Origin: a bacterium
Lineage (GTDB): Bacteria; Blakebacterota; Blakebacteria; Blakebacterales; Blakebacteraceae
Length of the DNA: 15,262 bases
Direction of reading: 5' to 3'
NCBI GenBank assembly: GCA_025774615.1
Contig: JALGVQ010000066.1
Coordinates: 1-15,262 of the forward strand
The position numbers and the translations under genes are program-made. The notes below the pieces were generated by a model that was not told the DNA's origin, ran no database searches, and worked only from the letters and a program-made list of their open reading frames with translations. Positions 3,408 to 15,262 of this stretch are shown in pieces; the stretch's first letter is position 1; each line of letters starts with the position of its first letter.

Positions 3408-4817
3408 TCAGGAAGAGCTGACACCGAGAGAGCGAACAGCCGCCCTTCCACTGCGGACGGCGCCCTCCAGTGTGGATGGCCATCCGGTAGCGGTCCAGGC
3501 ACCCGCGATCGCCAGCCCGGGGATCGTGGTCTGCTGGGAGGGGCGATGAGCCTCGGAACCGGGGAGGGCACTGAAGGTCGCCCTGGTCTCATGGATGAGT
3601 TTTGTTGCCAGAAGTCTTGTAGACCGGGCGCCGGGAAGAACCGCGGAGAGCTCATCCAGCAGGAGAGCGGTTGTCTGACGGTCATCCTCACCGAGGAAGC
3701 GATTCGAAGCGGAAACCACCAGGTTGAGGTGCTGTGCTGATGATGGGATCGGGTCCCTGCCCTCATCCGGTGATTGTCCCGGTTTGACGAAGACCCACTG
3801 AAGGGGGCTGTTCAGAATGCAGAGCAGCGGTTCTTCGGTCACCGGTTTCTCATACCAGAGGTGGAGGTTCAGGATCGGTGTCCACTCTAGGCCTGTTCCC
3901 TCTCGAAAGGGTGAGGTGTCCCGCAACTCAGAAGGCATGCTTCCCCGCAAAGCCCCGGGTGGAACAGCCATCACCGCGCCGGCGACAGGAACACGTTCAC
4001 CGCCGGCCAGCACAATGGAAGAGAGTCGCGGTTCCCGGTTGTCATCTCCGCCCGCCAGTTCGACTCCTTCGACCTTTGTTCCCCGTCGAATGGTTACTCC
4101 CTGCTCTTCGAGACCGCCGGCTACCCGGTCCCAGACACTCCCGTGCGGTTGACTCATCCAGGCGAGATTCGCGTCCCCCTTTCCGGCCAGAAAAGAATCC
4201 CGGATCGCCATCGCCGCCAGGTCCGCGCGGACTTCACCTACCTGCTGGTTGAGGATCGATGTGATCACCGGTTCCCAGAATCTCTCGATGACCGCCGCAG
4301 GCTGGCGCTGTTCGGTGAGCCACTCTCCGAATCTTCTATCCCGCCCTTCAGTGAAGAGCCGGGCTCCGGAGAACTTCAGTGATATGAGGCCCCGCAGGAG
4401 CGCTGCCCGATCACCGGGTCGAAGAGGCGGGAACGTGAGGAGTGGCAGGAGCAGATGAAACGGGGTCGGCAGGTTCAGAGCCTGCAGTACAGCTTCCTTC
4501 CGGTCCCGTTCGAGGAATGTCACTCTGAAGCGCGGCTGGGTATAGGTAAGATCGCTGACACCTGTTCGGTCAAGAAAGTCGGTGAATTCGGTACAGCATG
4601 GCATCCATATGTGCTGGCCGTTGTCGATATACCAGCCGCTGTCAGGATCTCTGAACGATGAGATCCTCCCTCCGAGTTCGGCTCGCTGCTCAAGGAGGAT
4701 AACGCGCTGTCCGGCACGGATCAGGGCCTCGGCAGCGGCAAGTCCCGCAACACCTCCACCAACGACCGCGTACGGCTGCCTCCCTTCAACCGGATGCGCG
4801 TCCGATCCCCCGCTCAC
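3408..4817 (-). CDS. hpnE: Hydroxysqualene dehydroxylase (squalene-associated FAD-dependent desaturase family)
   Basis: A 469-residue FAD-dependent amine-oxidase-fold protein that reduces hydroxysqualene to squalene, the last step of the HpnCDE route. The Rossmann motif is at residues 17-51: AVVGGGVAGLAAAEAL with Gly20, Gly22 and Gly25, the ribose-binding Glu43 (LLEQ) and the LGGR loop at 48-51. DNGQHI at 65-70 is typical of this branch of phytoene-desaturase relatives. The C-terminal FAD-binding motif is visible as AIAGAWTATGWPSTLEGAV. Length is normal for HpnE. It starts with GTG at 4817, overlapping the hpnD stop in GTGA, with AAAGGTG seven bases upstream, so it is translationally coupled. 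It is cytoplasmic or peripheral on the membrane where squalene collects. A phytoene desaturase role is unlikely because the gene sits with both hpnC and hpnD. Confidence 0.93.
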   Translation of the reverse strand: MSGGSDAHPVEGRQPYAVVGGGVAGLAAAEALIRAGQRVILLEQRAELGGRISSFRDPDSGWYIDNGQHIWMPCCTEFTDFLDRTGVSDLTYTQPRFRVTFLERDRKEAVLQALNLPTPFHLLLPLLTFPPLRPGDRAALLRGLISLKFSGARLFTEGRDRRFGEWLTEQRQPAAVIERFWEPVITSILNQQVGEVRADLAAMAIRDSFLAGKGDANLAWMSQPHGSVWDRVAGGLEEQGVTIRRGTKVEGVELAGGDDNREPRLSSIVLAGGERVPVAGAVMAVPPGALRGSMPSELRDTSPFREGTGLEWTPILNLHLWYEKPVTEEPLLCILNSPLQWVFVKPGQSPDEGRDPIPSSAQHLNLVVSASNRFLGEDDRQTTALLLDELSAVLPGARSTRLLATKLIHETRATFSALPGSEAHRPSQQTTIPGLAIAGAWTATGWPSTLEGAVRSGRAAVRSLGVSSS

Positions 4818-5737
4818 TCTGATACACCTTTCAGGTCGGAGGGCGTTCCGCGGAGGCGATATCGCCAGTATGCAGAACCAAGCAGTCTGAGTTTCATCGT
4901 GAGGGTGAGATCGGGGACAGAGCTGAAAACATCGAAGCGCGTGGCCTCGATCCGGTCGAGGATCTTCCGGTAGAGTTCTCCCATCAAGGCCGGACAGATA
5001 CGGGCATCCCGGGCGATCAGGGGAAGAAGTCCGCGACCTTCATCGAGGGCATCCCTCGCCCGACCGGCAAGGGTTCCCATCATCCCTTCCCACGCATCAC
5101 CTGTTCGGCCCGCGAAGATATCCTCCTCGGAGATGCCGAATTCTTCCATCAGCTCACCGGGGATATATATCCGGTCCGATTCGGCATCGGTCCTGACATC
5201 CCTGATGATGTTGATCAACTGCATGCCATGACCCTGGGCGATCGCGAACGCGGCTGCCTCCTCAGAACGGCCATCACAGACAGCCGAACACATCAGGCCG
5301 ATCGTTCCCGCCACATGGTAACAGTATGTGCGAAGATCCTCGTAAGCATGGTATCGCGTCACCGACTGATCCTGTCTCACTCCCGTGAGCAGGTCATGAA
5401 GCGTGTGCACCGGCACTGCGAAGCGCTCGATCGTGTCTGCCAGCGCAATGAAAACGGTCCCTCCCGGATCACCAGTAAGCGCCTCATCCAGCCGCGATTC
5501 GAGGTGATCGAGGGCAGCCAGCCGCTCATCGAGATCGCGTCCTTCTTCATCGGCAAGATCGTCCGCTATCCGGGCGAAGCTGTAGAGAGCATAGAGTGCA
5601 TGGCGACGGTCCCTGCGCAAGGGGAGGAAGGCATAGTAGAAATTTCGGGCCTCCTGCCGTGTGATCACCGCGCATTCGGCGTACGCCTGCTCCAGATCGA
5701 GGCCCCGTCTCTGATCTGCCAGCAGGGGATGATTCAT
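4814..5737 (-). CDS. hpnD: Presqualene diphosphate synthase
   Basis: A 307-residue head-to-head prenyl synthase that condenses two farnesyl diphosphates to presqualene diphosphate. The first Mg-binding aspartate motif is DDLADE at residues 59-64 after FYYAFLPLRRDRRHALYALY. The second is DVRTD at 180-184 within NIIRDVRTD, followed by DRIYIP, the hallmark of squalene/phytoene synthases. The ordering after hpnC and before hpnE, and the FYYAF signature, favour HpnD over phytoene synthase CrtB. The start codon overlaps the hpnC stop by four bases (ATGA at 5734-5737) and its own stop overlaps the hpnE start, so the three proteins are probably made in stoichiometric amounts. A GATC-rich stretch (about 18 per kb by my hand count) is typical of this window. 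No broken motif or frame problem was seen. Confidence 0.95.
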   Translation of the reverse strand: MNHPLLADQRRGLDLEQAYAECAVITRQEARNFYYAFLPLRRDRRHALYALYSFARIADDLADEEGRDLDERLAALDHLESRLDEALTGDPGGTVFIALADTIERFAVPVHTLHDLLTGVRQDQSVTRYHAYEDLRTYCYHVAGTIGLMCSAVCDGRSEEAAAFAIAQGHGMQLINIIRDVRTDAESDRIYIPGELMEEFGISEEDIFAGRTGDAWEGMMGTLAGRARDALDEGRGLLPLIARDARICPALMGELYRKILDRIEATRFDVFSSVPDLTLTMKLRLLGSAYWRYRLRGTPSDLKGVSE

Positions 5738-6618
5738 GTGGTTCGTCCCGTCAGGTATCGAAGAAGTATCGAGAAGATCAATGTCCCCTTCTTCAGCAAC
5801 GTCAAAACCGGGCGCTTCCCCAGTACATCGAAGTCGCCCTCCTCTATCGCATCGAGGATCGACTCCCCACCGCGCGAGAAGAGGAGGAGATCGATCCTGA
5901 ACCGGCCGGCCACCAGTCCGGTGAGCGGTCGCCCCCTTTCAAAATAATCCCGTGTCCGTTCGACCTCGAATCTGAGCAGGTCTCTGAATCCCTCCGTTGC
6001 ACGACCCCGTCCGAGGTCATCCTCGCTCACCGAGAACCGCTGCAGGTCCTCTGTGGGCAGATAGATCCTTCCCATCGCGAGATCCCTGCTCACATCCTGC
6101 CAGAAATTGGTCAGCTGCAGAGCGGTACAGACGGCATCGCTGAAGGGATGGAGTTCTTCGTCCCGGTAACCGAATACAGCAAGGACAAGCCTGCCGACAG
6201 GGTCGGCCGAAAAGGTGCAGTATTCGAGCAGATCATCGAAAGAGGCGTATCGCTGGACACGCTGATCACGCCTGTTCGCCTCGATGAGTCTGAGGAAGGG
6301 ATCGAGTGGGAGATCGAGTTCTTTACGCGACTGACTGAGCGCGCGGAATGCGGCCGGTGATTCTCCCGGTGGCGCCTCACCCCTGCCGAAAGCGGCCATG
6401 AGGTGCGCCTCCCACCAGTCGAGCCGTGCCAGCCGATCCCCCTCGAACTCATCTCCTGCATCATCAACGCCGCGAGCAAACCCATACAGAGCGTACATGT
6501 GCCGCCTGACCTGGCGCGGCAGAAGCGCTGATGCAATGGGAAAGTTCTCGTAGTGCTGCCGCGTCAGGGCGCGGCATTCCGCGTAAGCGCGCTCTATGTC
6601 AGACTCGTTCGTATTCAT
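5734..6618 (-). CDS. hpnC: Hydroxysqualene synthase
   Basis: A 294-residue squalene/phytoene synthase-family enzyme that converts presqualene diphosphate to hydroxysqualene. Residues 23-29 carry the HYENFPI phrase characteristic of HpnC, where squalene synthases have other residues. The first aspartate motif is DDAGDE (about 52-57) and the second is QDVSRD (Asp175, Asp179) within LTNFWQDVSRDLAMGRIYLP. Translation could begin at GTG 6621 or the adjoining ATG 6618. I chose the ATG; neither has a strong Shine-Dalgarno sequence (weak GAG upstream). It is first in the hpnC-hpnD-hpnE operon, whose promoter must lie in the 140-bp region shared with the divergent membrane gene at 6759. The pathway is known to feed squalene-hopene cyclase in hopanoid producers, but no cyclase is visible here, so squalene may be the end product or the cyclase lies elsewhere. 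Confidence 0.95.
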   Translation of the reverse strand: MNTNESDIERAYAECRALTRQHYENFPIASALLPRQVRRHMYALYGFARGVDDAGDEFEGDRLARLDWWEAHLMAAFGRGEAPPGESPAAFRALSQSRKELDLPLDPFLRLIEANRRDQRVQRYASFDDLLEYCTFSADPVGRLVLAVFGYRDEELHPFSDAVCTALQLTNFWQDVSRDLAMGRIYLPTEDLQRFSVSEDDLGRGRATEGFRDLLRFEVERTRDYFERGRPLTGLVAGRFRIDLLLFSRGGESILDAIEEGDFDVLGKRPVLTLLKKGTLIFSILLRYLTGRTT

Positions 6619-6665
6619 CACCGTCGCTCATTCTCGGACTTCACGACCCGCCGCGCAACGCATTC

Positions 6666-10033: not shown

Positions 10034-13000
10034 TTATTGTATCAATCGCTCCTCAAGAATCACCACTGGATGTACGGCAGTCCGGCCTGTGGCGTCAACG
10101 ATCTGGTGTCTGCAGGAGGTACCGGGGACAACGATTGTACCGCGTCCCTGCAGTGCCTCAATCGCCGGGAATAACCGCTGCCCGCCTATCTCCATCGAGA
10201 GATCATAGTGCTCTTTTTCGTAACCGAACGATCCTGCCATCCCGCAACACCCGGCATCCACTTCCTCAACTTCGGTTCCCGGCAGCCATTCGAGTACGTG
10301 AATGAGCGGACCACTGCCCGCAAGCGCTTTCTGATGGCAATGTCCATGAACCAGCAGATGGGCTTCATCATGGTCACGGGGTGAACGGAACTGCAGTACG
10401 GGGCCAAGCTCTTCTTCGCTCTTCAGAAGCCATTCCTCGACGAGATGGGCGGACGCTGCCACCCTCTCAGCTGCTTCACCAGGTATAAGCGCCGGGTATT
10501 CATCCCTCAGGGTGAGGAGTGATGACGGTTCAACACCGATGATCGGATCACCACCCTCAACCAGAGGAGCCCAGGCCTCGATATTGGCGCGCGCCGCGGA
10601 TACGGCTTGTGCCACCAATCCCTTCGAGAGCATCGCCCGGCCGCATGTTCCTCCAGGCAGTGGCAGCAGCTCGACTCTCCAACCCAAACCCTGAAGAAGC
10701 CGGACTGTGGCCATGCCGACTTCCGGCTCAGTGTAGTTCGTGAATCCATCCGGGAGTACATGGACGGTTCCACGACTCATCTTGCTGCTGGAGACGTCCC
10801 CGTTGCCGCGTTGCGCTCGACGGTACTGTTTCTCGAATGTCTGCCGATGGAAGCGGGGCAATGAATGCCGTGCCTCAATTCCCACCAGACGATCGAGCAA
10901 CCATCTCACGGGGGGGGACCCGGCAATCCAGTTACTGACGGGCGCGGTTGCCGATCCCAGCCGGTTCAGCCTGTCGATGCCGCCGATCAGGCGTGTCCGC
11001 AGGGGGACACCGTGCTCGTGATGCCAGTGTGCCAGATATTCGGTCTTCAGCCGTGTCATATCAACAGCGCTTGGGCACTCGGTCTTGCACGCCTTGCATT
11101 CCAGGCAGAGGTCGAGCGTATTGAAGAGACGCTCATCCAGAAGACCCGCGTTCTCCACCCGGCCGGAGAGAACGGCCCTGAGGGCGTTACCACGGCCTCG
11201 CGTCGAGTGTTCCTCATCCCGGGTCGCCATATAGGAGGGACACATCGTCCCGGAGTCCAGCTTCCGGCATTCACCCGATCCATTGCACATCTCAACGGCG
11301 CGGGCAAATCCACCATCGAGGGTGAAATCGAACCAGGTCGTGACCGGGATCGTGGAGTACTCATGACCGTAGCGGAGAGATTCGGTGATCGATGGTCCCC
11401 GTACGATCCTGCCGGGGTTCATGATCCCTTCAGGATCGAAGGTGTCCTTGATCCGCTCGAAGAGCCTGTGCAGTTCCTCTCCGTGGATCTTCGGACTGAG
11501 CGCGCTCCTCAGGATCCCATCCCCGTGCTCTCCCGACATCGCCCCTCCGTACTTGAGCACGAGATCGGAGACCGCCTCGGAAATGGAAGCCATTTTCCCG
11601 ATGCCGTCCATCTCCTTGAGATTCACCACCGGCCGGATGTGGAGACACCCCGCCGAGGCGTGAGCGTAAAAGGTGGCGGGCGCATCGTGATCCCTGAGAA
11701 CTCTGAGCACTTCTCCGATATAGTCCCGGAGGTTCTCAGGTGGAACCGAGGTGTCCTCGATGAAGGGGAGTGGTTTGAAATCACCTCGCCGGCTCATCAC
11801 GAGTCCGAGTCCGGCCTTCCGGACCGACCAGACGTTTACCTGCTCCTCATGGTTGTGGAGAATGCTCACTCCGACCGGCCCCGTGGCCGCGTCCCGGGCT
11901 GCGGCAATCAGTCGCTCCAGATGAGGTTCCCGTTCCTCAGGGGTGTGGCCATACACCTCCACCATGAGGAGCGCTTCCGGCTCACCATCGACAAAGGTCA
12001 TCTTGCGGGCATATTCCGGCTGTTTCCGGGTGAGCCCCAACAACATCGAGTCCATCAGTTCGATCGCTGAAGGAGATTCGGCGAGCATTGCCGGCACAGT
12101 GCCGAGAGCGCTGAGCAGGGAATCGAAGGAGAGCACTGCAAGGCTGGTACCAGGCGGCCTCTCCACCAGTCCCAATTCGAGTTCCACCATCGTGCAGAGA
12201 GTACCCTCGCTGCCGGCAAGCAGTCGCGCCAGGTTCAGCGGTCTACCCGGCGCAAATCCTTTCAGATCATACCCTCCGACCCGCCGCCAGTGCTTCGAGT
12301 ACCCCGCCTCGATGACCGGCTGCTTGTCCCTGACAATCCTCACGACCTCCCGGTAGATCGCCATTTCGAGCCCGACAGGAGGCGGTGCGGCTTTCAGCCC
12401 GCCCGCTGTCGCCTCGACATCACCCGGGGAGGCCAGTCCGGCCCGGCGGTGTGCCTCCTCCCACGAAACACTCTCGAATACCGCGCGACTGCCGTCGGCG
12501 AGCACCGCTTTCACACGCTTCAGGTGATCACCCGACATGCCGTAGAGGATCGAGTGGGAGCCGGTACCGTTATTTCCCAGTACACCACCGATCGTCGCCC
12601 GGTTCCCACTGGCGGGATCGGGTCCGAACATGAGGTTCGATCCCGCGGCTTCAGCATTCAGTCGATCGAGGTAAATGCCCGGCAGTGCGGCGATCGATCG
12701 TGATTCAGGATAGAACCGCGTGATCGAGTCCATATACCGGTTCAGATCGAGGACGACCGCCTCGTTGACGGTCTGTCCGGCCAGAGATGTGCCTCCCCCG
12801 CGCGGCAGAACAGGGAATCCGTACGCCGCGCACCGTTCCACGGTGGCAAGGACTTCCTCTTCATTTTTCGGGAAGACGACGCCAAGAGGCATGATCTGGA
12901 AGATGCTCGCGTCGGTCGAATAGAGCATCCGTGTCCAGTCATCAAAACGGACTTCACCCGAAATATCCCTGGAGAGATCGGCCGCCAGAGCCCGCAGTCC

Positions 13001-13042
13001 CTCCGGGACGTGCTCTCCGGATATGTTCCGCGATGCCTGCAT
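10034..13042 (-). CDS. YdiJ-type FAD-linked oxidase / Fe-S protein (2-hydroxyacid dehydrogenase family)
   Basis: A 1002-residue fusion of a GlcD-like flavoprotein and a GlpC-like iron-sulphur protein, the architecture of E. coli YdiJ. Residues about 50-290 are the PCMH-type FAD-binding domain (LPRGGGTSLAGQ at 79-90, FGPDPASGNRATIGG at 139-153). The FAD-oxidase C-terminal domain follows (AHASAGCLHIRP near 460, SGEHGDGILRS near 503). Fe-S motifs are CNGSGECR with MCPSY (Cys586, 592, 601) and CLECKACKTECP (Cys646, 649, 652, 656). The C-terminal half has cysteine-rich CCG-type motifs: GGTCGR (Cys800), HGHCHQK (Cys902) and DAGCCGMAG (Cys932-933). Such enzymes oxidise D-2-hydroxyacids (D-lactate, D-2-hydroxyglutarate) and pass electrons to the respiratory chain; the substrate here cannot be told from sequence. 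ATG at 13042 has GGAG eleven bases upstream. It may originally have followed the beta-barrel gene on the same strand. Confidence 0.9.
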   Translation of the reverse strand: MQASRNISGEHVPEGLRALAADLSRDISGEVRFDDWTRMLYSTDASIFQIMPLGVVFPKNEEEVLATVERCAAYGFPVLPRGGGTSLAGQTVNEAVVLDLNRYMDSITRFYPESRSIAALPGIYLDRLNAEAAGSNLMFGPDPASGNRATIGGVLGNNGTGSHSILYGMSGDHLKRVKAVLADGSRAVFESVSWEEAHRRAGLASPGDVEATAGGLKAAPPPVGLEMAIYREVVRIVRDKQPVIEAGYSKHWRRVGGYDLKGFAPGRPLNLARLLAGSEGTLCTMVELELGLVERPPGTSLAVLSFDSLLSALGTVPAMLAESPSAIELMDSMLLGLTRKQPEYARKMTFVDGEPEALLMVEVYGHTPEEREPHLERLIAAARDAATGPVGVSILHNHEEQVNVWSVRKAGLGLVMSRRGDFKPLPFIEDTSVPPENLRDYIGEVLRVLRDHDAPATFYAHASAGCLHIRPVVNLKEMDGIGKMASISEAVSDLVLKYGGAMSGEHGDGILRSALSPKIHGEELHRLFERIKDTFDPEGIMNPGRIVRGPSITESLRYGHEYSTIPVTTWFDFTLDGGFARAVEMCNGSGECRKLDSGTMCPSYMATRDEEHSTRGRGNALRAVLSGRVENAGLLDERLFNTLDLCLECKACKTECPSAVDMTRLKTEYLAHWHHEHGVPLRTRLIGGIDRLNRLGSATAPVSNWIAGSPPVRWLLDRLVGIEARHSLPRFHRQTFEKQYRRAQRGNGDVSSSKMSRGTVHVLPDGFTNYTEPEVGMATVRLLQGLGWRVELLPLPGGTCGRAMLSKGLVAQAVSAARANIEAWAPLVEGGDPIIGVEPSSLLTLRDEYPALIPGEAAERVAASAHLVEEWLLKSEEELGPVLQFRSPRDHDEAHLLVHGHCHQKALAGSGPLIHVLEWLPGTEVEEVDAGCCGMAGSFGYEKEHYDLSMEIGGQRLFPAIEALQGRGTIVVPGTSCRHQIVDATGRTAVHPVVILEERLIQ

Positions 13043-13093
13043 ACCTCATACTCTCCAAAGGATGGAACGAGTCAGATCAGTTCTGTTCCAGTG

Positions 13094-13116
13094 TAGTGCC
13101 CCTGCTCAGGGCACTA
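13094..13116. terminator. Hairpin overlapping the stop codon of the relic beta-barrel gene end
   Basis: TAGTGCCC-CTGCTCA-GGGCACTA is a perfect eight-bp stem with a seven-base loop. One arm contains the TAG stop (13114-13116) of the relic gene end. No U-tract follows on the minus strand. It resembles a native transcript 3' end kept together with the relic. Confidence 0.45.
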
Positions 13117-13166
13117 AAGGAAAGTAGTGAGTGTGAGGGTCAGATACCAGCCTGCAGGTTCAGAGA
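13114..13166 (-). pseudogene. Relic 3' end of the outer-membrane beta-barrel gene
   Basis: On the minus strand this 53-bp segment encodes SEPAGWYLTLTLTTFL and a TAG stop, the same last residues as the beta-barrel gene ending at 14393. The nucleotide match to 14393-14445 is 49 of 53. The four differences (at 13117, 13123, 13126 and 13150) are all third-position, synonymous changes. Homology ends abruptly at 13166, beyond which the frame encodes unrelated residues (GNNETGDI). It is therefore the severed or duplicated end of a gene whose body has been displaced by the kelch cassette. Confidence 0.75.
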
Positions 13167-13215
13167 TATCCCCTGTTTCATTATTTCCGAATCTCCGAAG
13201 AAAATCGGGTGTGGA

Positions 13216-13245
13216 TTTACCGGCCACCCGGTGATCTGGTACGAT
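13216..13245 (+). promoter_or_regulatory. Possible promoter of the kelch gene
   Basis: TTTACC (13216-13221) and TACGAT (13240-13245) are separated by 18 bases and match the -35 and -10 consensus at four of six positions each, about 60 bp before the kelch start. A short inverted repeat ACCGG-N4-CCGGT lies between them. This is a weak match in the 260-bp divergent gap (13043-13304), which otherwise holds only the relic gene end and its hairpin. Confidence 0.3.
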
Positions 13246-13304
13246 GCACGTCATGACCTGATTATTTCGAACATATGAGTGTGTACCTTTGAGGAGGCAT
13301 GACA

Positions 13305-14330
13305 ATGCTGAAGAGCAGACCAAAGGTATCTATCGAACTCGTCAGAACAGCTATTCTCATCTTTCTTTCATCCACGTTACTGGCGAACTGTTGTCCCCCA
13401 TGTGAGCCCCCCAAACCGAAAGATCGGGAATACGACATTGTCGAGGTGTACGATATTGCCACTGATACCTGGAGCGAATTGCCCAATTCCCCAATGATCA
13501 CACCGCGGAGTGTCTCCGCCGCAGGAGTCATTAATGGCCGACTCTATGTGGTGGGAGGATCAGATCAGAAGTACAAAACATCAGCCTACGACTCTCTCGA
13601 AGTATTCGATCCGGAAACCGGTTTGTGGAGTCTGGGCCCGCCCATGCCTGGAAAAAGGGATGGTCCCGGTGCCGTCGTCCATGACGGCAAACTGTATGTG
13701 ATTGGAGGTAGTATTCGAACGTCCTATTACAGCGATCTGTTCATTTACGATTCGGCAACCAACACATGGACGATTGGCGCTCAGATGCCTTCAGCCAGAT
13801 ATTGTCCCGCGGTGGGTGTCATCGAAGGCAAAATCTATGTTGCAGGTGGCATGATAGGCAACCCGACAGGACCTGGTATCCTGGATATCGCGACGTTTGA
13901 GATCTATGACATTGCCACCGACATGTGGCTCGCTACGTACGAAATGCCCACCGCTCGCGGCCAGCCCGCCTTCGGCGTCATTGATGGCAAACTGTATGTG
14001 GCAGGTGGATTTGTGGATACATACGAGACGACTGATGTAGTTGAATTTTACACACCCTCAGGTATCTGGAGGACAACCAGTGCATCCATGAATATAACCT
14101 GGGCGGAAGGGTGCGGAGTCGTGTACCAGGGTAAGCTGTATGTCATGGGCGGGATCACCCAGGAGTCACGTGAATCGCACACCATCCTGAATACACTTTC
14201 CGTCTTCGATCCGATATTGGACACCTGGACCAGACTGGAAGATATGCCTACTGCGCGATCTGAGGCCGCTGCAGGAGTCATCGATGGAAAAATCTATGTA
14301 GTAGGAGGTTATCAATCGCGGAATAAGTAA
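13305..14330 (+). CDS. Kelch-repeat six-bladed propeller lipoprotein
   Basis: A 341-residue protein. I chose the ATG at 13305 because AGGAGG ends seven bases upstream; the ATG at 13299 is only one base from it. The N-terminus is basic (MLKSRPK) with a hydrophobic core (AILIFLSSTLLAN) leading to Cys-Cys, a likely but atypical lipobox with Asn at -1. Six kelch units follow, each with a YD/FD...W strand and a GVI-G-LYVVGG double-glycine strand (VVGG, VIGG, VAGG, VAGG, VMGG, VVGG), which closes a six-bladed propeller. DNA repeats between blades (GGCAAACTGTATGTG at 13686 and 13986) point to recent blade duplication. Its GC is near 50% in lines I counted, against 60-65% in neighbours, and GATC density is about half. 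Orientation is opposite to all nearby genes, and it is bounded by direct repeats of the beta-barrel gene end, so it looks acquired. Function is unknown, probably binding at the cell surface. Confidence 0.88.
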   Translation: MLKSRPKVSIELVRTAILIFLSSTLLANCCPPCEPPKPKDREYDIVEVYDIATDTWSELPNSPMITPRSVSAAGVINGRLYVVGGSDQKYKTSAYDSLEVFDPETGLWSLGPPMPGKRDGPGAVVHDGKLYVIGGSIRTSYYSDLFIYDSATNTWTIGAQMPSARYCPAVGVIEGKIYVAGGMIGNPTGPGILDIATFEIYDIATDMWLATYEMPTARGQPAFGVIDGKLYVAGGFVDTYETTDVVEFYTPSGIWRTTSASMNITWAEGCGVVYQGKLYVMGGITQESRESHTILNTLSVFDPILDTWTRLEDMPTARSEAAAGVIDGKIYVVGGYQSRNK

Positions 14331-14366
14331 TCGTGACAGGATGAGGATGTCTCAGAAGAACAGGAT

Positions 14367-14393
14367 GGAATCTGCGATCCGCAGTATCATTCC
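14367..14393. terminator. Bidirectional terminator-like hairpin between convergent genes
   Basis: GGAAT-CTGCG-ATC-CGCAG-TATC-ATTCC: an inner five-bp stem CTGCG/CGCAG with a three-base loop and an outer five-bp stem GGAAT/ATTCC separated by a four-base bulge. It lies 36 bp after the kelch stop and touches the stop of the beta-barrel gene, so it could end both converging transcripts. U-tract absent. Confidence 0.45.
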
Positions 14394-15262
14394 TACAGGA
14401 ACGTCGTGAGTGTGAGGGTCAGATACCAACCTGCAGGTTCAGAGAGACGGCGGGTGAAATCGATGCGAAAGAGTTCGGCTATCCGGCCGATCCCGAAGCC
14501 CACTTCCCGGTACAGTCCATCATCAGGGATAACCGTTTCCCCCCGCCACGACCGGGCAATACCACCGTGGGCGTACAGTTCGATGCCACGTTCATAGAGT
14601 GCCCTGATGCCGAGCATCTGGAAGGGCTGGCTGCGGAAGTTGTGCTCGACGGTGAGCACGGCGTAGTCGGTGCCGGCGAGTTCACGGTGTCCCGCGCTAC
14701 GCAATGCGCCGAGCGGACAGTAGTAGCCGAGGGCGTTCTCAGGCCCTCTCCACAGCTCTCTCGGCAGTGCGCCCTCGCTCCACCCACCGGCGAGCCGGAA
14801 TACCAGCATGGGAGAGAAGAGGTAGCGGGTGGTGAAGGTGGGGATTGAATACGAGAGCACGCCATCGACCCGGGTATAGGAATTATATCCAAATCGCGTC
14901 GGGCCGGCGAAATCACCCGCACCGAACGCCTCACCCTGTTCTACACTCAACAGGACCCCCTTGCCCGTGGACATGCTCGCTGAACTCTCGGGGCGTCCGA
15001 TCCTTATACTGGCCCCACTTCGTGTCCAAGTGCCTTCCTCTATGCTGACCGCGGAATTGGTCCGGGGTATCCCGTCCCGGTTGGAAATACTCCAGCCGTT
15101 CATCGCTTCCAGGCTCTGGTGCGTCGCCCGCGCCAGGAAAAGATCCACGCCGAGACCTGAACGGTCCACCGGACTCACATCAAGCCGCCATCCTCTGCTT
15201 GTGTGGTAGTCGTAGTAGTCGTCCTGAAAAAGCGTCGTAGAGAGAGTATTGAGCAGGACCGG
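14393..15262 (-). CDS. Outer-membrane beta-barrel protein, C-terminal part (5' end beyond window)
   Basis: The frame is open from the right edge to the TAG at 14393, giving about 289 C-terminal residues. There is a GTG at 15178 but the frame continues upstream with sensible sequence (TLFQDDYYDYHTSRGWRLDV), so the start lies outside. The protein consists of alternating polar and hydrophobic strands with aromatic girdle residues, such as SIPTFTTRYLFSPMLVFRL, YAVLTVEHNFRS and GIELYAHGGIARSWRG. It ends in WYLTLTLTTFL, a C-terminal beta-signal-like strand. This suggests the barrel half of a surface-antigen (BamA-like) or DUF5686-type outer-membrane protein; the exact family is uncertain without the N-terminal part. 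Two TT(C)/FL-type terminal residues replace the usual final Phe. Its last 17 codons are duplicated at 13114-13166. It converges with the kelch gene and was probably once directly upstream of the YdiJ-type gene. Confidence 0.8.
   Translation of the reverse strand, partial: PVLLNTLSTTLFQDDYYDYHTSRGWRLDVSPVDRSGLGVDLFLARATHQSLEAMNGWSISNRDGIPRTNSAVSIEEGTWTRSGASIRIGRPESSASMSTGKGVLLSVEQGEAFGAGDFAGPTRFGYNSYTRVDGVLSYSIPTFTTRYLFSPMLVFRLAGGWSEGALPRELWRGPENALGYYCPLGALRSAGHRELAGTDYAVLTVEHNFRSQPFQMLGIRALYERGIELYAHGGIARSWRGETVIPDDGLYREVGFGIGRIAELFRIDFTRRLSEPAGWYLTLTLTTFL

Follow-up and report, generated by a model that had tools for sequence, protein, structure and literature searches.

A kelch gene inserted beside a displaced copy of an outer-membrane gene end in an uncultured bacterial lineage

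Toward one end of the stretch of DNA analyzed here (the window, 15,262 nucleotides, which is the whole of one contig, C62) a single kelch gene lies between two closely similar copies of an outer-membrane gene's 3' end. How did the gene come to be there, and does the arrangement reveal a mobile element? The outer-membrane gene is of a beta-barrel type with the Pfam domains CarboxypepD_reg and DUF5686, and its 3' part (289 codons) occupies positions 14393 to 15262 of the minus strand. On the same strand at 10034 to 13042 lies the gene for a YdiJ-type FAD/Fe-S oxidoreductase, assigned by Pfam; its match to the NCBIfam YdiJ model falls short of the cut-off. Between these genes is a segment of unique DNA (13167 to 14392, 1,226 bp) that encodes the kelch protein and nothing else. 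Elsewhere in the window two squalene/phytoene synthase genes and an amine-oxidase-type gene stand in a row (3408 to 6621, minus strand, by Pfam), like the hpnC-hpnD-hpnE squalene route; this group is ordinary.

The direct repeat is 53 nucleotides in length. The copies at 13114 to 13166 and 14393 to 14445, both read on the minus strand, are identical at 49 of the 53 positions (92.5%), with a start-to-start distance of 1,279 bp, and self-BLAST pairs them with E = 3.6e-14. The longest exact run common to the two is 23 bp. In the minus-strand frame each copy reads SEPAGWYLTLTLTTFL followed by the same TAG stop, and the four differences (GGC/GGT, ACT/ACG, ACT/ACG and CTT/CTG) are all synonymous changes at third positions. 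Were four changes placed at random in the repeat, the probability that every one would be synonymous is ~0.008. The first-pass annotation had given the repeat with these positions, this identity, the included stop codon and the four synonymous differences, and every element of that description is borne out.

Similarity ends sharply on both sides, the 20 bp outside the repeat edges being only 20% and 35% identical. We rejected an extension of homology upstream of the 13114 copy past 53 bp, as the 31-amino acid match at 58% that suggested it comes from the identical codons of the repeat itself. At its own ends the insert has no repeat, and no inverted repeat longer than 6 bp. The copy at 14393 is the in-frame 3' end of the present barrel gene, whereas that at 13114 is displaced from the gene and adjoins the YdiJ-type gene. 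The direct repeats are thus the 3' end of a target gene that is restored on one side, which is an arrangement by which ICE, IME and CIME-type elements are recognized.

Directly behind the 13114 copy is a hairpin (13087 to 13117, minus strand, UAGUGCCCU...GGGGCACUA), for which folding of the fragment 13060 to 13120 gives z = -2.99; in the window the TAG stop codon lies inside its stem. Hairpins stand directly after the barrel stop in three genomes (window 13087-13117, L019 6410-6445 and L020 690-770). Their sequences differ, and what is conserved may be the position of a terminator.

The barrel gene runs off the end of the window, and it continues into a second contig through an exact overlap of 105 bp (window 15158-15262 = G000:C65:1-105, in the reverse complement frame of the gene). 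The gene is split by the assembly only. When joined, the open frame, with which the 14393 copy is continuous, comprises 908 codons compared with 904 in the congener, and the gene ending in the 14393 copy therefore appears from its sequence to be intact. Its orthologues in the three other genomes of the family that we compared are 73, 63 and 55% identical (G001, G002 and G003, respectively), the first belonging to the same genus and the others to a sister genus.

In all three relatives, and thus in two genera, the YdiJ-type gene comes directly after the barrel gene, and no kelch gene separates them. On contig C492 of G001 the barrel gene ends at 6408 and the YdiJ-type gene starts at 6465. The same empty arrangement is found on C56 of G002 and on C307 of G003, where the end of the contig cuts the YdiJ-type gene and leaves its 5' part. 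A scan of GTDB contigs for the site returned the same three records and otherwise only distant ones. This is the empty site for which the first-pass annotation had proposed a search. It had also named a full second barrel gene in relatives as the observation that would speak against its interpretation; we sought such a gene upstream of the YdiJ-type gene at the orthologous site in G001, G002 and G003, and none was found. Since the orthologous site is empty in all three relatives, the kelch segment is, by this comparison, an insertion gained in the lineage of the window. The YdiJ-type gene is the right-hand neighbor at the empty site, and the 13114 copy lies beside it just as the barrel end does there.

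The inserted gene (13299 to 14330, plus strand, convergent with the barrel gene) encodes a protein of 343 amino acids that matches Pfam Kelch_1 with E = 6.7e-63 over seven stretches. Reading of the N-terminus indicates a secretion or lipoprotein-like signal with an imperfect lipobox. The protein probably represents an exported beta-propeller from a family typical of the lineage and, by analogy with what is usually expected of such proteins, it may bind a ligand at the cell surface. Among 336 genomes, relatives of the protein at E <= 1e-60 occur only within the same bacterial family, with 44-50% identity, which fits a related donor. The G+C content of the insert is 0.51 compared with 0.59 for the window; that of the kelch gene, at 0.51, lies below both its neighbors (0.605) and its relatives (0.56-0.60). 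The kelch DNA is single-copy, and elsewhere in the family the insert finds no match outside short kelch-coding stretches. Viral relatives were considered and rejected: there is no close relative of the protein in IMG/VR, and kelch matches in phages and plasmids are distant, at <60% identity. No defense-system model matches the protein. In this genome and its congener, arrays of a 45-bp tandem repeat lie ~2 kb from kelch genes (L023 3222-3555 and L054 3699-4196), and near a kelch gene of G002 there is a 2.3-kb tandem duplication with 68% identity (L055 4246-6563 and 7614-9913).

Which of the two gene ends is the original one? Comparison with the congener G001 shows agreement at 11 of 12 informative codons for the 13114 copy and 9 of 12 for the 14393 copy; at the level of bases the agreement is 45/51 and 42/51. 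Of the four variable positions, three point to the 13114 copy as the ancestral one, and the other copy has clear support from none. The displaced 13114 copy is therefore most likely the recipient's original gene end, on moderate evidence, the polarity being drawn from three informative third positions and mainly from one congener. The 14393 copy was most likely brought in together with the insert, from a close relative.

The synonymous differences point the same way. Had insertion begun with two identical copies, the 13114 copy, freed from coding, would be expected to change faster than the coding copy, having 53 free sites where the latter has ~14 synonymous ones. On this model the probability that all four changes fall on synonymous sites of the coding copy is ~0.002, or 0.009 for the three that are polarized; when changes are allowed in either copy the probability that all are synonymous is 0.03. 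Because the observed pattern is improbable from an identical start, it is most likely that the two gene ends were alleles of two related genomes and had already diverged when they came together. The earlier proposal that both copies evolved as coding ends is thus most likely right, given that all four differences are synonymous.

We consider that the kelch gene was probably acquired by recombination with the DNA of a close relative. The ancestral order was the barrel gene followed by the YdiJ-type gene, as the relatives show. Incoming linear DNA from a related bacterium would have carried a homologous barrel end followed by a convergent kelch gene. At one end of the donor DNA a homologous crossover would occur inside the barrel gene, and at the other an illegitimate joint would be made to the recipient barrel gene at the start of its last 53 bp, which include the stop codon, a process termed homology-facilitated illegitimate recombination (HFIR). 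The stretch of recipient DNA between crossover and joint would be replaced. An equivalent end from the donor would nevertheless keep the barrel gene whole, and the final 53 bp of the recipient's gene would remain as a non-coding remnant beside the YdiJ-type gene. A Campbell-type crossover with a circularized homologous molecule would give the same product, and the two routes are indistinguishable here.

This one-sided homologous event is the simpler reading, and it accounts for the repeat, for an edge that coincides with the stop codon and for differences that are all synonymous, with neither a recognition site nor a recombinase acting in trans. That the repeat stops where the gene does would reflect the conservation of coding ends against divergent intergenic DNA; it is this contrast that would set the edge, which is therefore no recognition boundary. 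Synonymous-only allelic differences are compatible with a divergent homologous donor. The donor arrangement of a barrel end followed by a convergent kelch gene was seen in no genome. The genome encodes a ComEC/Competence-domain protein, which lends weak support to DNA acquisition, since such proteins are common. The first-pass annotation had implied either a homologous or a trans-acted event; the homologous alternative fits, and a trans-acting recombinase is unneeded.

Similar products have been described. In HFIR, reported for the three competent species Streptococcus pneumoniae, Acinetobacter baylyi and Pseudomonas stutzeri as well as, with low efficiency, for conjugation in E. coli (PMC3240628), one end is anchored by homology and the other joined illegitimately with no recombinase, and the same would hold here. 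The kelch case differs in being inferred from anatomy alone, with donor and microhomology unseen, and in that a gene-end remnant is left. HFIR is reported to be rare, and it has been invoked for displaced 3' ends in Vibrio cholerae and at Rhs loci (PMC5361080). In the T6SS clusters of V. cholerae and in Rhs loci, with their 3' ends and immunity genes (PMC5361080), a homology-anchored module shifts the old 3' end downstream as a remnant, as would have occurred at the present locus. Here, in contrast, the protein terminus encoded by the new end is unchanged, and a single kelch gene is carried without any effector-immunity logic. More generally, direct repeats commonly flank differences in gene content between bacteria, being reported for 10-18% of small variable segments (PMC2884548). 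Such segments share with the kelch segment a short difference in gene content bounded by direct repeats, but those repeats are mostly <30 bp whereas here the repeat is 53 bp and coding.

The strongest competing explanation is that the segment is an integrative cassette without a recombinase, or the remnant of one, similar to a cis-mobilizable element, in which attL and attR would correspond to the 53-bp repeats, and a recombinase that acted in trans or has since disappeared would have inserted the segment and restored the gene end. We judge this unlikely, but the best of the alternatives. It accounts for a direct repeat at a gene 3' end, for the restored end and displaced original, and for the empty sites of the relatives. 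There is also a precedent in the H47 genomic island of E. coli, a mobile island with imperfect direct repeats and no recombinase (PMC5426353), and it is because such segments exist that we keep some probability for a site-specific event. H47 is, however, 13 kb in size with repeats of ~145 bp and a mobility that was shown by PCR, whereas the kelch segment is known from its sequence alone. The first-pass annotation had found no recombinase in the segment, and indeed the kelch open reading frame is the only one present. Searching the recovered genome (82% complete) for recombinases of the tyrosine type gave XerC and XerD, both above the NCBIfam cut-off, and one linked to IS91. The last is followed by an IS91-type transposase (Y2_Tnp, Zn_Tnp_IS91) within L071 (G000:C245) 284-2394.

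Nor does the sequence of the repeat behave as a reused site. There is no further copy of the 53-bp sequence in the genome, and within the family it occurs only at the ends of barrel genes apart from chance-level matches. The repeat core pattern has no match in IMG/VR. In the three relatives the site is empty and has not been reused. The earlier suggestion that the same repeat pair might surround other cargo failed: no comparable pair was found around other kelch genes, whose flanks contain internal kelch or tandem repeats only, or in a sample of ~227 kb that included DNA of relatives. Unusually strong nucleotide conservation at this gene end in the congener was considered as a sign of a recognition site and discarded, for although the value of 11/12 codons is high, equal windows are found elsewhere in both genes. 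Of the original view of an element that protects its target by integrating at the 3' ends of genes, we therefore retain the insertion and the restored gene end but not the site-specific element, for which neither a linked recombinase nor a reused site was found. The narrower proposal of a minimal single-gene cassette, which a host recombinase acting in trans would direct to the 3' terminus of an outer-membrane gene and which would bring along a synonymous version of that terminus, seems to us distinctly improbable.

Alternatively the insertion might have been accompanied by a long target duplication of the type found with restriction-modification genes in Helicobacter pylori, in which case the last 53 bp of the target were duplicated and then diverged. 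An empty site in relatives together with a long direct repeat of the target is how such insertions are recognized, and both are found here with no transposase, as in the H. pylori cases (PMC1643837, PMC3031569). Yet copies made in this way would start identical and the freed one would drift everywhere; what is observed is four differences that are synonymous without exception, and it is the freed copy that is conserved. The probability of that pattern is ~0.002 to 0.03 depending on how the changes are shared between the copies, with four differences only. The present copies were probably different alleles from the start, and the cargo contains no restriction-modification system. We regard target duplication as improbable, and more so than the integrative cassette.

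Two other explanations are very unlikely. An origin of the 13114 copy from an old tandem paralogue of the barrel gene, the rest of which gave way to the kelch gene, would agree with two ends that are homologous coding ends, but we reject it since a single barrel gene directly precedes the YdiJ-type gene in all three relatives, homology stops sharply at 53 bp and the remnant is not decayed. An assembly chimera is conceivable in a draft metagenome bin of 324 contigs, where the window ends inside the barrel gene, but the 23-bp exact run is too short for joining when contigs overlap by 105 bp, and the single-copy kelch DNA encodes a protein whose best relatives are in the same bacterial family.

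The kelch insertion is thus most likely an ordinary footprint of gene acquisition and no new mobile element, and it reveals no new system. It does offer a simple test by which an end borne by the donor might be told from a target duplication, in asking whether all the differences between the repeats are synonymous and which copy is ancestral. Above all it provides a clean example, from an uncultured lineage, of how a chromosome takes up one gene next to a conserved one and leaves the latter unbroken.
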